From: an uncultured Pseudomonadota bacterium
Lineage (GTDB): Bacteria > Pseudomonadota > Gammaproteobacteria > Burkholderiales > SG8-39
Assembly: GCA_903864555.1 (NCBI GenBank)
Contig: CAIPGJ010000757.1
Coordinates: 1 to 12,351 of the forward strand
Length of the DNA stretch: 12,351 nucleotides
Direction: 5' to 3'
The notes under the pieces are model-generated. The model ran no database searches, was not told the DNA's origin, and saw only the letters and a list, made by a program, of their open reading frames with translations. Each line of letters starts with the position of its first letter. Positions within the stretch are counted from its first letter, which is position 1. This document shows positions 280 through 10,603 of this stretch, piece after piece. Both the position numbers and the translations under genes were made by a program.

Positions 280-1530
280 ATGGCTCAGATCCTGGTTGTA
301 GATGACGAGATCGGCATACGAGAGCTGCTCTCCGAGATTCTTTCCGACGAAGGTCACACCGTGCGGGTAGCCGAGAACGCCACCCAGGCTCGTGAAGCCC
401 GGCAACGGGCACGTCCTGATCTGGTATTGCTGGACATCTGGATGCCTGACGCCGATGGCATCACCCTGCTCAAGGAGTGGGCTTCCTCCGGGCAGCTGAA
501 CATGCCGGTCGTCATGATGTCCGGCCATGCCACCATCGATACCGCGGTCGAGGCGACACGCATCGGTGCCCTGGATTTCCTGGAAAAGCCGATTGCGCTG
601 CAAAAGCTGCTGGCTACGGTCAAGCGTGCCCTGGCCCAACAGGACGCCCGCGCCTCGCGCGCCATCAGCATCGGCGATTTCGGTAAATCGCAGGCTCTGG
701 GTGACCTGAAGAAACGCCTGGCCCAGTTGATCCCGGCGCGTTCGTGGGTGCTGCTGCGCGGCGAGCGCGGCGTGATGCCCGAACTGTATGCACGCGCGCT
801 GCACCAGCCCGGCACCGCCTGGATCAATGCCGGCGCGTTCCTCGGGAAAGCCGGCACGCAGGAGGCTCACCCGGCAGCCGGCGGCGTGCTGTTCATCGAT
901 GAGCTGGGCCGGCTGTCTGCCAACCAGCAAAAGCACCTGGCCTTCCTTGCCGGGCAGACCGAGCGTTTCAAGTTGCGTGTTATCTGCTTCAGCTCGCAGG
1001 GACTGCGGCGCCTCAGCGAAACCCAGGGACTGGACGCGAGCCTGGCGACGCGCCTGTCCGAGGTGGTGCTGCCCATTCCCCCCTTGCGTGAACTGGCCGA
1101 GGACATTCCCGACCTGGCACTGGCTTTCCTGGGAAAGTTGATCGAAAGCCGAGATTGCCCGCCGCGCCGTTTTTCCCCGGACGCCTTGCGCACGCTTTGT
1201 GCGCATGACTGGCCGGGCAACCTGGAAGACCTTGCAGGGACCGTCCGTTCCCTGGCGGCAACTGCGCTGGGTGAGGAAATCACCGCGGCCGAAGCTGCGG
1301 CCATGCTGAAGGAGTTTGCCGGTGAAGGGCCGCTGGCCGACCTGCCCCTGGACCTGCCATTGCGCGAGGCTCGCGAAGCCTTCGAGCGCGCCTACTTCGA
1401 ACGCCACTTGGCTGCCGAGGGCGGTTCCATTGCCAGGGTCGCGGAAAAGAGCGGCCTGGAGCGTACCCACCTCTACCGCAAGCTCAAGGCGCTGGGCATC
1501 GCCACCGGACGCAAGGATGGCGAGTCCTGA
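280..1530 (+). CDS. ntrX: NtrX-like response regulator with degenerate AAA+ domain
   Basis: A 416-residue DNA-binding response regulator, partner of the kinase just upstream. Residues 1-120 are a receiver domain: acidic pair D8-D9, phospho-acceptor D52 in LLDIWMPD, MMSGHAT, and the conserved lysine in LEKPI. Residues ~140-330 align with the sigma-54-interacting AAA+ domain of NtrC-type activators but are decayed. The Walker A position reads GERGVMPE (~160), without the GK. The segment carrying the GAFTGA sigma-54 contact loop is missing: only about 17 residues separate INAG (~182) from the retained Walker B-like GGVLFIDELGR (~201-211). Residues ~382-407 form a Fis-type helix-turn-helix (SIARVAEKSGLERTHLYRKL). 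By inference it cannot hydrolyse ATP or open sigma-54 promoters, and may work as a phosphorylation-controlled repressor or sigma-70 regulator. ATG start; the upstream SD is weak (AAGAAAG). Confidence 0.88.
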   Translation: MAQILVVDDEIGIRELLSEILSDEGHTVRVAENATQAREARQRARPDLVLLDIWMPDADGITLLKEWASSGQLNMPVVMMSGHATIDTAVEATRIGALDFLEKPIALQKLLATVKRALAQQDARASRAISIGDFGKSQALGDLKKRLAQLIPARSWVLLRGERGVMPELYARALHQPGTAWINAGAFLGKAGTQEAHPAAGGVLFIDELGRLSANQQKHLAFLAGQTERFKLRVICFSSQGLRRLSETQGLDASLATRLSEVVLPIPPLRELAEDIPDLALAFLGKLIESRDCPPRRFSPDALRTLCAHDWPGNLEDLAGTVRSLAATALGEEITAAEAAAMLKEFAGEGPLADLPLDLPLREAREAFERAYFERHLAAEGGSIARVAEKSGLERTHLYRKLKALGIATGRKDGES

Positions 1531-1604
1531 CAGAGTAGAATCGTTGTCCGGTTTCCGTGGCAATCCGACATGAACGCCAGCAGCCAATCCCGGTGGATAC
1601 CGGC

Positions 1605-6696: not shown

Positions 6697-9600
6697 TTAC
6701 AGGTTGGGGGCGAGCCAGCGTTCGGCCTCATCCAGGGAAAGGCCCTTGCGTGCGGCATAGTCCTTCACCTGATCGGGGCCGATTTTGCCCACGGCAAAAT
6801 ACTGGGACTGCGGATGGCCGATGTAGAAGCCGCTCACCGCGGCCGCCGGCATCATGGCGTAGCTCTCGGTGAGCGTGATGCCGGCCTCCGGTGCATTCAG
6901 CAGCGAGAACAGGCCGGCCTTTTCGGTGTGGTCGGGGCAGGCCGGATAGCCGGGCGCTGGCCGGATGCCGTGGTACTTCTCGGCAACCAGTGCGTCATTG
7001 CCCAGTGCCTCGTCTGCGGCATAGCCCCAGAACTCCTTGCGTACGCGCTCGTGCAGGCACTCGGCAAAGGCCTCGGCCAGCCGGTCGGCCAGGGATTTCA
7101 GCAGGATGGCGTTGTAGTCGTCGTGCTTCGCCTCGTAGGCCCTGACGCGCTCGTCGATGCCAATGCCGGCCGTGACGGCAAAGGCGCCGACATAGTCCTG
7201 GATGCCGGCATCATGCGGTGCCACGAAATCGGCCAGACAGTAATTGGCGCGGTCTGCAGCCTTTTCGATCTGCTGGCGCAGGTTGTGCCAGGTCATGAGC
7301 TTCGTGGTACGTGACTCATCGGCATAGATCTCGATGTCATCGCCCACTGAGGCGGCCGGCCACAGGCCGAACATGCCGCTGGCGGTGAGCCAGCGGCCTT
7401 CGATGATCTTCTTCAGCATGGCCTGGCCGTCGTGGAAGACATTGCGCGCGGATTCCCCGACCACCGGGTCCTCCAGTACTTTCGGATAGCTGCCGGCCAG
7501 GTCCCAGGTCTGGAAGAAGGGTGACCAGTCGATGTACTTCGCCAGTTCGCCCAGATCGTAGTTCTTCAGCAGCTTGCGGCCGATCAGCTTTGGCCGTGTG
7601 GGGGTGTAGCCTTTCCAGTCGATGGCGAAGTGGTTGCCGCGCGCCTTGCCCAGTGCCACCAGCGTCGGGCCTTTCTTGCTGGCGTGCTGGGTGCGGATCT
7701 TGTCGTAGTCGGCTTCCAGGGTGGTGAGGTAATCGCCACGCTGGGCATCCGAGAGCAGGCTGGAGCAGACCGCCACGGAGCGCGAGGCATCCGGCACGTA
7801 GACAGTTGGGCCGGCCGTGTAATTCGGCGCGATCTTCACCGCGGTGTGCACGCGTGAGGTGGTGGCCCCGCCGATCAGCAGCGGCAGCGTGAAGCCTTGG
7901 CGCTGCATCTCCTTGGCCACATGCCCCATCTCTTCGAGTGAGGGCGTGATCAGTCCGGACAGGCCGATGATGTCGGCGTGTTCTTCGCGCGCGGTGTCCA
8001 GGATCTTCTGCGCCGAAACCATGACGCCCAGGTTCACCACTTCGTAGTTGTTGCACTGGAGCACCACCGACACGATGTTCTTGCCGATGTCATGGACGTC
8101 GCCCTTCACCGTGGCAATGACGATCTTGCCCTTGGGCTTGGCCGCTTCGCCTGACTCGCTGGCCACCCGGGCTTTTTCTGCCTCGATGTAGGGGATCAGG
8201 TGGGCCACCGCCTGCTTCATCACGCGGGCGGATTTCACCACCTGGGGCAGGAACATCTTGCCGGCGCCGAACAGGTCGCCGACGACATTCATGCCATCCA
8301 TGAGCGGCCCTTCGATCACCTCGATGGGGCGGCCGCCGCGCGCCTCGATCTCCTGGCGGATGGTCTCGGTGTCCTCGACGATCCATTGCGTGATGCCGTG
8401 CACCATCGCATGGGTGAGGCGCTGCCCAACTGGGGCATTGCGCCACGCCAGGTTCTGCTCGGCCCTGGCGCCGCCCGCCTTGAGCGTGCCGGCCAGTTCG
8501 ATCAGCCGTTCGGTGGGGTCGCTGCCCTCTGCGCCTGCATTCCCGGGCCGTCGGTTGAGCACCACGTCCTCGACGCGCTCGCGCAGCTCGGGGTCGAGAT
8601 CGTCATACACGCCGACCATGCCGGCGTTGACGATGCCCATGGTCATGCCCGCCTTGATGGCGTGGTAGAGGAACACCGTGTGGATGGCCTCGCGCGCCGG
8701 GTCATTGCCGCGGAAGGAGAAGCTGACATTGGAGACCCCGCCCGACACCTTGGCGTAGGGCAGGTGCTGGCGGATCCAGCGCGTGGCCTCGATGAAGTCC
8801 ACGCCGTAATTGTTGTGTTCATCGATGCCGGTGGCAATGGCAAAGATGTTCGGGTCGAAGATGATGTCTTCGGCGGGAAAGCCCAGCTGCTGCGTCAGCA
8901 GTTCGTAGGCACGCCTGCAGATCTCGGTCTTGCGCTGGAAGGTGTCGGCCTGGCCCTGCTCGTCAAAGGCCATGACGATGATGGCAGCGCCATAGCGCTT
9001 GCACAGTTTCGCCTGGGCAAGGAAGGCGGCTTCACCTTCCTTGAGCGAAATGGAGTTGACGATGGCCTTGCCCTGCACGCACTTCAGGCCCGCCTCGATC
9101 ACTTCCCACTTGGAGGAGTCGATCATGATGGGCACGCGCGCGATGTCCGGCTCCGAGGCCACCAGATTCAGGAAGCGCACCATGGCGGCCTTCGAATCCA
9201 GCATGGCCTCGTCCATGTTGATGTCGATCACCTGGGCGCCGTTCTCCACCTGCTGGCGTGCCACGGCCAGGGCTTCGTCGTACTGCTCGTTCAGGATCAG
9301 CCGGGCGAAGGCCTTGGAACCGGTGACATTGGTGCGCTCGCCGACGTTGACGAAGAGCGAGCTCTCGTCGATGTTGAAGGCTTCCAGGCCGGACAGACGC
9401 AGCTTGCGGTCGGCCTCGGGCGGGCGCCGTGGCGGCAGCGGCTTCACCGCTTTGGCAATGGCGCGGATATGGTCGGGCGTGGTGCCGCAGCAGCCGCCGG
9501 CAATGTTCACCAGCCCGGCGCCGGCGAATTCACTCAGCAGCGAGGAGGTGATATCCGGGGTCTCGTCAAAGCCGGTGTCGCTCATCGGATTGGGCAGGCC

Positions 9601-10428
9601 GGCATTCGGGTAGACGCAGATGTGCGCCTCGCAGATGCGCGACAGCTCTTCGATGTAAGGCCTCATCAGCGTGGCCCCCAGCGCGCAGTTCAAGCCGATG
9701 GTCAGCGGGTTGGCGTGCCGCACCGAATTCCAGAAGGCTTCCACCGTCTGGCCGGACAGGATGCGGCCGGAGGCATCGGTGACCGTGCCCGAAATCATGA
9801 TGGGCAGGCGCACGCCCTTCTCGTCGAAGAAGGTCTCGATGGCGAACAGGGCCGCCTTGGCATTCAGTGTGTCGAAGATGGTCTCGACCAGAAACACGTC
9901 GACGCCGCCCTCGTACAGCGCACGCGCCTGCTCCAGATAGGCAGCCACCAGTTCGTCGAAGGTGACATTGCGCGCGCCCGGGTCATTCACGTCCGGCGAG
10001 ATCGATGCGGTCTTGGGCGTCGGCCCGAAGGCACCCGCGGCAAAGCGCGGCGCATCCGGCGTCGAGTATTTCGCGCAGGCGGCCTTGGCCAGGCGCGCCG
10101 AGGCGACGTTCATCTCCCAGGCCAGGTCTTCCATGTGGTAATCGGCCTGGGCCACGCGCGTGGCGCCAAAGGTGTTGGTCTCGAGGATGTCTGCCCCGGC
10201 GGCCAGGTACTGCTCATGGATCTCGCTGATGACCTCCGGACGCGTGAGTGACAGCAACTCGTTGTTGCCCTTCACGTCCTGATCCAGCTCGGCAAAGCGG
10301 GTGCCGCGATACTCGGCCTCGCCCAGCTTGTAGCGCTGGATCATGGTGCCCATGGCGCCGTCCAGGATCAGGATGCGGCGTGACAGCAGGTCACGAAGCT
10401 CGTCGGTGCGGTCGGTATGGCTGGTCAT
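6697..10428 (-). CDS. metH: Cobalamin-dependent methionine synthase MetH
   Basis: Transfers the methyl group of 5-methyltetrahydrofolate, via methylcobalamin, to homocysteine to make methionine. It is 1243 residues and has all four modules. (1) The homocysteine module begins [10 protein letters not shown] and has zinc ligands C248 (GLNCALG) and C313-C314 ([10 protein letters not shown]). (2) The folate module begins [16 protein letters not shown] (~375). (3) The cobalamin cap and Rossmann module has the DxHxxG motif [10 protein letters not shown], with H779 as cobalt ligand, and [13 protein letters not shown]. (4) The SAM-dependent reactivation module has [15 protein letters not shown] (~1156-1170) and ends in the usual WL-rich tail. 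The ATG at 10428 gives the expected N-terminus; an upstream in-frame ATG would lie inside the terminator hairpin. Its leader carries a SAM-II-like riboswitch and terminator, so expression is probably shut off when SAM is plentiful. Confidence 0.98.
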
Positions 10429-10442
10429 GGCGGAATCCGAAT

Positions 10443-10493
10443 AAAAAAACCCGTTCAGCTGGCGCATTTGCGGCAATGCAGCTAAACGGGTTT
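10443..10493 (-). terminator. Intrinsic terminator in the metH leader (attenuator)
   Basis: Read on the minus strand, AAACCCGTT-T-AGCTG (10493-10479) pairs with CAGCT-G-AACGGGTTT (10461-10447). This is 14 base pairs with a single T/G position opposite (C56/A84 on the plus strand). An inner AATG/CATT pairing adds 4 bp. The stem runs into a 7-T tract (10449-10443), ending 14 nt before the metH ATG. As a terminator directly upstream of a start codon with no gene behind it, it is best explained as an attenuator controlled by the preceding leader structure. Confidence 0.9.
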
Positions 10494-10568
10494 CCCTCGC
10501 TTTAGCCGTATTTGTTTTGCACCCCTTCTTCCGGGTGGCGCCCGCAAGCTGATGTCAAATCGGCGCGA
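10494..10568 (-). ncRNA. SAM-II-class riboswitch aptamer upstream of metH
   Basis: Read on the minus strand. P1 is GCGCC (10566-10562) with GGCGC (10542-10538). The P1 loop starts GAUUUGAC (10561-10554), matching the SAM-II GAUUUAAC, and ends in UUGC. An inserted hairpin CACCC/GGGUG (10537-10533 with 10524-10520) sits in loop 3. Then come ACAAAUAC and GGCUAAA (10507-10501), matching the conserved AUAAAUG...GCUAAA 3' part of SAM-II aptamers. AGCU (10550-10547) can pair with GGCU (10507-10504) as the pseudoknot. The downstream target, metH, is a known type of SAM-II target. The identification is from remembered consensus, not a covariance-model search. Confidence 0.75.
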
Positions 10569-10574
10569 GGCGAA

Positions 10575-10603
10575 ACATTAACGATTCAAGGGGTTAATGT
10601 CAA
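10575..10603 (-). promoter_or_regulatory. metH promoter with an 8-bp inverted repeat
   Basis: On the minus strand a perfect -35 TTGACA (10603-10598) is separated by 17 nt from a -10 TAATGT (10580-10575). Initiation about 7 nt further on would fall near 10568, just where the aptamer P1 begins. A perfect inverted repeat ACATTAAC/GTTAATGT (10600-10593 with 10582-10575, 10-nt centre) spans the -35 edge to the -10. It could be an operator for a repressor, though no known binding consensus was recognised. Confidence 0.65.

Follow-up and report, generated by a model that had tools for sequence, protein, structure and literature searches.

The window analysed here, a stretch of 12,351 nucleotides (nt) from an uncultured bacterium of the order Burkholderiales, carries on its minus strand metH, the gene for B12-dependent methionine synthase. 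Directly 5′ of this gene, a base-by-base check found a complete pseudoknot of the SAM-II type (10566-10497, minus strand). Judged from sequence, metH is very probably attenuated by a divergent SAM-II riboswitch, and the leader probably turns the gene off when S-adenosylmethionine (SAM) is plentiful. We regard the leader, with considerable confidence, as a SAM-II riboswitch whose expression platform works by transcription attenuation. The class assignment follows from the sequence and covariation of the pseudoknot, the pocket nucleotides, homology to loci of the Rfam SAM-II family RF00521 and the methionine-pathway genes downstream of the relatives; the switching model draws on a terminator and an antiterminator pairing that exclude one another.

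The metH leader carries an intact SAM-II pocket

The aptamer consists of the following parts, with nucleotide positions of the class taken from the available text of PMC3764141.

10562-10566, minus strand: 5′ strand of P1, GCGCC (pair check; covariation)
10555-10561, minus strand: L1, GAUUUGA, with G8, U10, U11 and U12 at 10561, 10559, 10558 and 10557
10544-10552, minus strand: 5′ strand of the P2 pseudoknot, UC(A)GCUUGC, with U20, U21, G22 and C23 at 10547-10544 (pair check; covariation)
10538-10542, minus strand: 3′ strand of P1, GGCGC (pair check; covariation)
10520-10537, minus strand: hairpin inserted in L3, 10537-10533 pairing with 10524-10520; absent from the compact relatives L018, L024 and L047
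10510-10513, minus strand: L3, AAAU, with A36 and A37 at 10512 and 10511 (pair check)
10497-10506, minus strand: 3′ strand of the P2 pseudoknot, GCUAAAGCGA, with G42-A47 at 10506-10501 (pair check; covariation)

Together the listed pairs make up the H-type layout of a P1 hairpin combined with a P2 pseudoknot. A first-pass annotation of this DNA had recognised P1, L1 and a GGCUAAA 3′ strand as a SAM-II pattern, and these parts are borne out base by base, ACAAAUAC-GGCUAAA occupying 10515-10501 on the minus strand. It had likewise named the 3′ strand of the pseudoknot correctly, leaving unnamed the 5′ partner at 10552-10544.

Thirteen pocket nucleotides are described as completely conserved in SAM-II (U10, U11, U12; U20, U21, G22, C23; G42, C43, U44, A45, A46, A47; available text of PMC3764141). 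Compared base by base with these positions, all 13 are unchanged in the metH leader, where U10504 of the P2 3′ strand occupies the U44 position. The L3 adenines A36 and A37, which face the P1 minor groove in SAM-II, are also present in AAAU at 10513-10510. This intact pocket bears on the idea that the same fold recognises another ligand, e.g., S-adenosylhomocysteine (SAH) or methionine. Other pseudoknotted SAM/SAH aptamers do exist (SAM-V, SAM/SAH), whereas every pocket position here is that of SAM-II, and according to the available text of PMC4239095 betaproteobacteria already sense SAH through another riboswitch, whose core targets are ahcY and metF; a change of ligand is accordingly very improbable. 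For the A. tumefaciens metA RNA, binding of SAM in preference to SAH is on record.

At Rfam gathering thresholds, neither the window nor the seven metH relatives carrying the motif gave any match, and none of the seven (0/7) passes RF00521. The models for SAM-II long loops (RF01726), SAM-V and SAM-SAH gave no match in the window leader up to E 10. Among sub-threshold Rfam matches, those to microRNA precursors, CopA and RT-12 were set aside as fitting mainly the terminator hairpin, and those to 23S-methyl, Leu_leader and ncS011 as weak (E 3-8).

Homology to RF00521 and reach across genomes

RF00521 misses the metH leader at its cut-off, so homology was shown instead by applying a covariance model of the metH leaders, R1, to RF00521 loci. 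The metH relatives were taken from the best 80 of 592 metH-like loci, and the SAM-II motif lies upstream of metH in 7 of these 80. R1 was built from the seven and the window, i.e., from eight betaproteobacterial metH leaders. The compact form of the element is found in L018, L024 (Undibacterium) and the metagenome-assembled genome locus L047; in L001, L012, L019 and L053 there are inserts in L1 and/or L3, which differ in sequence.

Of the 30 best RF00521 loci in a phylum-wide sample, all but L143 are found by R1 in the same register (29/30), 28 with E < 0.005; these loci are mutually related. Among 299 whole genomes, RF00521 matches 65 at E ≤ 0.01 (49 over its cut-off) and R1 matches 27, and in the 10 genomes common to both models the matches fall in the same place (10/10). 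Conversely, RF00521 is passed by 9 of the 29 non-metK leaders found by R1, all nine of which stand before metX. By sequence and homology, the metH element is thus a SAM-II member, divergent enough to fall under the Rfam cut-off.

At E ≤ 0.1, R1 has matches in all but two of 35 whole genomes (33/35); seven of the genomes contain training loci. The resulting alignment has 58 rows: 56 of 59 matches, the window and one antisense match. Downstream genes were assigned by blastp clustering and tblastn, one protein per gene being checked against NCBIfam. In 54 of the 58 rows the gene is metX (27, including two halves of one interrupted leader), metK (10), metZ (9) or metH (8). The eight metH rows are the training set itself, and 46 of the 50 rows outside it precede metX, metZ or metK. 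The remaining four are L115 (contig end) and L106, together with L135 and the antisense match in L084, both of which probably arose by chance.

Sampling 200 genomes of the order widened this picture. R1 matches 137 of them (E ≤ 0.001), while RF00521 is over its own cut-off in 36 and at E ≤ 0.01 in 91, so that, with these differing thresholds, most of the order-wide set goes unreported by RF00521 at cut-off (36 vs 137). Genes following 28 newly fetched R1 loci were metZ (9), metH (8), metX (8) and, in three cases, an unassigned gene. Taken together, the data suggest that in much of the order one RNA fold exerts SAM feedback over metX, metZ, metH and metK, which cover the steps between homoserine and SAM.

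Across the 58 aligned elements, 90.9% of P1/P2 cells are paired (P1 95.6%, P2 87.2%); shuffles give 82.9%, and slid registers no more than 50.3%. The alignment was fitted to P1 and includes a few rows that are chance matches. Of the P2 pairs, one is not formed in 36 of 56 rows. Cells changed on both sides of a pair number 61 versus 15.8 in shuffles; the P2 core beside the pocket is nearly invariant and therefore contributes nothing to this count.

A terminator and a candidate antiterminator

The features that link the aptamer to transcription of metH are listed below.

10501-10508, minus strand: 5′ strand of the candidate antiterminator, CGGCUAAA, overlapping the pseudoknot 3′ strand (pair check; folding)
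10479-10486, minus strand: 3′ strand of the candidate antiterminator, UUUAGCUG, inside the terminator 5′ arm (pair check; folding)
10443-10493, minus strand: intrinsic terminator, with arms 10493-10479 and 10461-10447 (15 base pairs, bp) and a run of seven U at 10449-10443
10598-10603, minus strand: −35-like hexamer TTGACA (6/6), by sequence; spacing the same in the closest relative, L001
10575-10580, minus strand: −10-like hexamer TAATGT (3/6), by sequence; 17-nt spacer
6697-10428, minus strand: metH, B12-dependent methionine synthase, 1243 amino acids (NCBIfam TIGR02082, 1715.6 bits; NF007024, 2132.1 bits)

A strong intrinsic terminator had been reported 14 nt before the metH ATG (10428), and the 15 bp and seven U at that distance agree with this. 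Its hairpin (10494-10446) has an energy of −26.7 kcal/mol and accounts for most of the stability of the leader fold (−59.3 kcal/mol vs a shuffled mean of −41.6; z −4.9). The pairing of CGGCUAAA (10508-10501) with UUUAGCUG (10486-10479), 8 bp including one G-U, was also described correctly by the first-pass annotation; position 10484, which it took to be mismatched in the terminator, actually forms a U-G wobble with 10456. Its overall proposal of SAM-II class, metH target and terminator/antiterminator anatomy is supported by the pocket, the R1 homology and the pairing.

Directly 5′ of the aptamer stands the pair TTGACA-N17-TAATGT, which is kept in L001. A consensus scan reported no promoter in the leader; by eye, TATAAT lies just 5′ of the aptamer in 6 of the 7 other metH leaders. 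An upstream palindrome, ACATTAAC/GTTAATGT, which the promoter-like boxes overlap, was set aside as broken in L001. The mechanically called metH open reading frame starts at a TTG (10476, minus strand) within the terminator, and the ATG at 10428 is a better fit to relatives.

We infer SAM as the ligand, the direction of control, the promoter, the start site and a kinetic win of the antiterminator as parts of the following mechanism. Transcription would start a few bases 5′ of P1. When SAM is scarce, the 3′ strand GCUAAAGCG would be free as the terminator 5′ arm emerges and would pair with that arm, so that metH is transcribed. When SAM is bound, the same strand would be held in P2, the terminator arms would pair together and transcription would stop before metH.

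Folding of growing transcripts is consistent with such an exchange. When transcripts are modelled from a start at 10566 or 10568, the four-pair core of the antiterminator has P 0.98-0.99 when the end is at 10476 or 10464, and is lost by 10448, with the terminator in its place. When folding began at 10574, the 5′ flank took part in a competing P1; starts of 10566-10570 were then modelled, as these fit the −10 spacing.

Complementarity to GCUAAA recurs across lineages and genes. The duplex was compared with dinucleotide shuffles in 24 of 53 assigned leaders, namely those whose hairpin is at least as stable as −15 kcal/mol; five of the 58 rows had been dropped beforehand (the first half of L121, L115, L106, L135 and the antisense L084 match), and ten metK leaders and L102, where the hairpin was judged to be within coding sequence, were excluded. 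The duplex reaches p < 0.05 in 9 of the 24. The antiterminator is a possible pairing, recurring in some relatives.

Weighing the attenuation model

Several results weigh against a SAM-II riboswitch that attenuates metH. As to class, the RF00521 search proposed in the first-pass annotation disappointed: the leader scores 14.9 bits against a cut-off of 36, in a partial match to model positions 11-41 of 79. At phylum scale, most RF00521 members are out of the reach of R1. Only 7 of the 80 related metH leaders carry the element. Two of the covariation measures are not distinct from shuffles over the 58 rows, namely the number of pairs with double changes (5 vs 4.0) and of pair types (17 vs 14.8), which were reached by 154/500 and 62/500 shuffles, respectively.

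As to switching, transcripts ending at 10476 form the six-pair GCUAAA:UUUAGC register with P of only ~0.24 if begun at 10566 or 10568; if begun at 10570, they favour a long-range fold in the energy model (antiterminator P 0.21). This model takes account of neither pseudoknot nor ligand; under it, the probability of P1 is 0.43-0.53 at 10476 and 0.05-0.07 at 10464, and other folds are favoured at many lengths. As in other attenuators, then, kinetics must decide between the folds, and the outcome depends on the start site. The shuffle comparison gives p = 0.092 (not significant) for the window antiterminator, and p stays at or above 0.05 in 15 of the 24 leaders; because the rows are related, the combined p over the 24 (1.9e-9) is no independent evidence. 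Finally, terminator-like hairpins precede 5 of the 7 metH genes with the aptamer and 24 of the 73 without it, a difference that is not significant (Fisher p = 0.09).

These points bear most on a reading in which the aptamer is SAM-II and the terminator does not switch, being instead a constitutive partial terminator, or one in which control acts mainly through RNA stability. The non-significant shuffle result for the window favours it, as do the full-length energies (terminator −26.7 vs antiterminator −13.5 kcal/mol) and the metA leader of S. meliloti, where aptamer and terminator coexist and, according to the available text of PMC9373788, the authors could predict no SAM-II-driven antiterminator. 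The same text, however, reports that SAM-dependent termination is predicted for S. meliloti metZ. The complement of GCTAAA, TTTAGC, is found no more than 100 nt downstream in 6 of the 24 terminator-bearing leaders vs 0.75 expected, and pairings of 9-10 bp with GCUAAAGCG occur in the metZ leaders L089-L091. In leaders with no called terminator, TTTAGC lies at that distance in 6 of 19 vs 0.67 expected. An unswitched terminator is thus unlikely, and attenuation by a SAM-II riboswitch remains our preferred reading.

Two earlier annotations read as the same element

The kind of riboswitch is already known. SAM-II was described in 2005 with a promoter usually just before P1 and terminators often after P2, and Bordetella bronchiseptica is among the organisms in the figure of that report (available text of PMC1273637). 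A 2007 paper called it the one riboswitch class that in alpha- and betaproteobacteria goes most often with terminators (available text of PMC2258182). The first-pass annotation had considered a betaproteobacterial example with transcriptional control worth recording; such anatomy is indeed present, and its novelty is weakened by these publications, which make the basic claim not new. With RF00521 (Corbino 2005) the window element shares the H-type pseudoknot, the pocket nucleotides, the promoter before P1, the terminator after P2 and downstream methionine genes; it differs in falling under the Rfam cut-off, in its L3 hairpin insert, in a bulged A in P2 and in having metH as target. RF01726, from Bacteroidetes and marine sources (available text of PMC2864571), is, by its name, a SAM-II aptamer with enlarged loops; the window leader has no match to it up to E 10.

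In the available text of Leyn 2014 (PMC4239095), SAM_alpha is given only for Rhizobiales and Rhodobacterales. According to the same text, metX or metZ leaders of 35 betaproteobacterial genomes contain a ‘metXZ’ RNA that has six conserved regions, a pseudoknot, a terminator and a possible antiterminator. It shares with the R1 elements the betaproteobacterial metX/metZ leaders, a pseudoknot between conserved regions, a downstream terminator and a proposed antiterminator, and differs in that metH and metK are not among the targets which that text describes. Gene context and layout agree on the basis of the published description, and on this basis the metXZ element is very probably the same RNA as the SAM-II type of the window. 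Within the open-access literature searched, ‘metXZ’ together with ‘riboswitch’ occurs in Leyn 2014 only, and no paper linking metXZ or RF02424 to SAM-II is among the matches listed.

RF02424 (Bp2_287, ‘Burkholderia sRNA’) gives the best Rfam match of the leader. It matches full length (10444-10600, 30.6 bits, E 1.9e-5) on the plus strand, opposite to metH, and below its cut-off of 70 bits. In principle, then, the conserved entity could be a plus-strand small RNA, and the B. pseudomallei copy is listed as validated by reverse-transcription PCR in the available text of PMC3521395. The promoter-like boxes, the aptamer core, the U-run of the terminator and the downstream gene, however, all lie on the minus strand. 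Among 9 metZ leaders scanned, two exceed the RF02424 cut-off, with the match antisense to the aptamer in each:

1416-1593, plus strand, in L093: RF02424 match, 141.3 bits
1463-1652, minus strand, in L095: RF02424 match, 95.9 bits

The authors of 2012 themselves noted that Bp2_Cand287, the source of RF02424, lies upstream of methionine genes in most genomes and proposed a cis-acting element (available text of PMC3521395). A plus-strand small RNA is therefore almost certainly the wrong reading. RF02424 covers the same conserved stretch as the minus-strand SAM-II element, modelled on the opposite strand, and the family looks mis-stranded.

On sequence and published description, we read metXZ, RF02424 (reverse strand) and the window element as one thing, SAM-II. 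The antisense relation of RF02424 to the element and the very probable identity with metXZ are apparently new. An orphan metXZ motif and an antisense Rfam ‘sRNA’ thus become the testable claim that both are SAM-II riboswitches, and the useful points are the likely merger of these two annotations into SAM-II and a wide, under-reported betaproteobacterial set.

A metK subtype and tandem aptamers

In all ten metK leaders of the alignment (L125-L134), L1 reads GAGUUAA, i.e., with G at the pocket position U10. Rfam gave no match to the leader at gathering thresholds in six metK loci scanned, and none at E ≤ 1 for L127. R2, a model of the metK subtype, matches 134 of the 200 genomes of the order; because it also picks up many R1-type elements, this figure does not count the subtype. 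metK lies downstream in 24 of 30 R2 loci returned (~1.3 kb away in L207); in these 24, L1 reads, by eye, GAGUU in 20, GAUUU in 3 and GUGUU in 1. The outer P2 pairing also varies by eye between metK rows (L125-L134 and most of L188, L195-L223), e.g., GAC/GUC and GAAC/GUUC. SAH riboswitches (RF01057) lie 3′ of metK in three of the six loci scanned (L125 1871-1959, L126 1775-1884, L130 1090-1202), which places SAM-II-like and SAH elements close together.

Tandem SAM-II riboswitches with mixed platforms are known from 44 examples (available text of PMC9481103). In tandem SAM-II and SAM-II/SAM-V systems the transcription-control aptamer comes first and the translation-control aptamer second, as appears to hold for the tandem loci described here; the window, in contrast, has a single aptamer. 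In 20 tandem loci chosen by eye (L257-L276), the two aptamers are 89-172 nt apart, start to start, and a terminator-like hairpin with a T-run stands between them in the sequences read. L1 of the second aptamer is, by eye, GAUUUAA in 9, GAGUU in 6 and other in 5. The next gene encodes a small protein of 95-114 amino acids starting M(Y/F)DC in 15 of 19 loci; two tested had no Pfam or NCBIfam match. In 14 of the 19 it is followed, by reading, by a MATE-like protein, and both of two such proteins tested match Pfam MatE. A word search of the main text of PMC9481103 gave no MATE target.

These loops raise the possibility, which we hold tentatively and consider rather doubtful, of two betaproteobacterial SAM-II subtypes: GAUUUGA before metX, metZ and metH, and mostly GAGUUAA before metK and in tandem second aptamers, the latter perhaps with changed affinity or ligand. 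If true, the signal or level sensed for metK and an exporter would differ from that for the remaining pathway genes. Counter to this, the change at U10 is not fixed: by eye, U is kept there in 3 of 24 metK-linked loci and in the second aptamer of 9 of 20 tandems.

Variation among metX leaders

Seven metX leaders, from Bordetella, Achromobacter and others (L096, L097, L098, L100, L102, L104, L105), have a Shine-Dalgarno-like purine run inside the P2 3′ strand, which reads GCUAAAGAGGUC or similar and lies 3-4 nt before the ATG. All seven pass RF00521. This arrangement suggests translational control, in which P2 would hide the ribosome site. In the metX leader L121, L3 of the aptamer is split at ~460-642 by ~180 nt with inverted-repeat ends (TAGGATTTACGC ... 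GCGTAAATCCTA), an insert resembling a small mobile repeat in a loop that tolerates additions. By eye, P2 seems extendable by CUGAC/GUCAG in the metX leaders L101, L107, L108, L119 and L122, where it would be longer than in the window.
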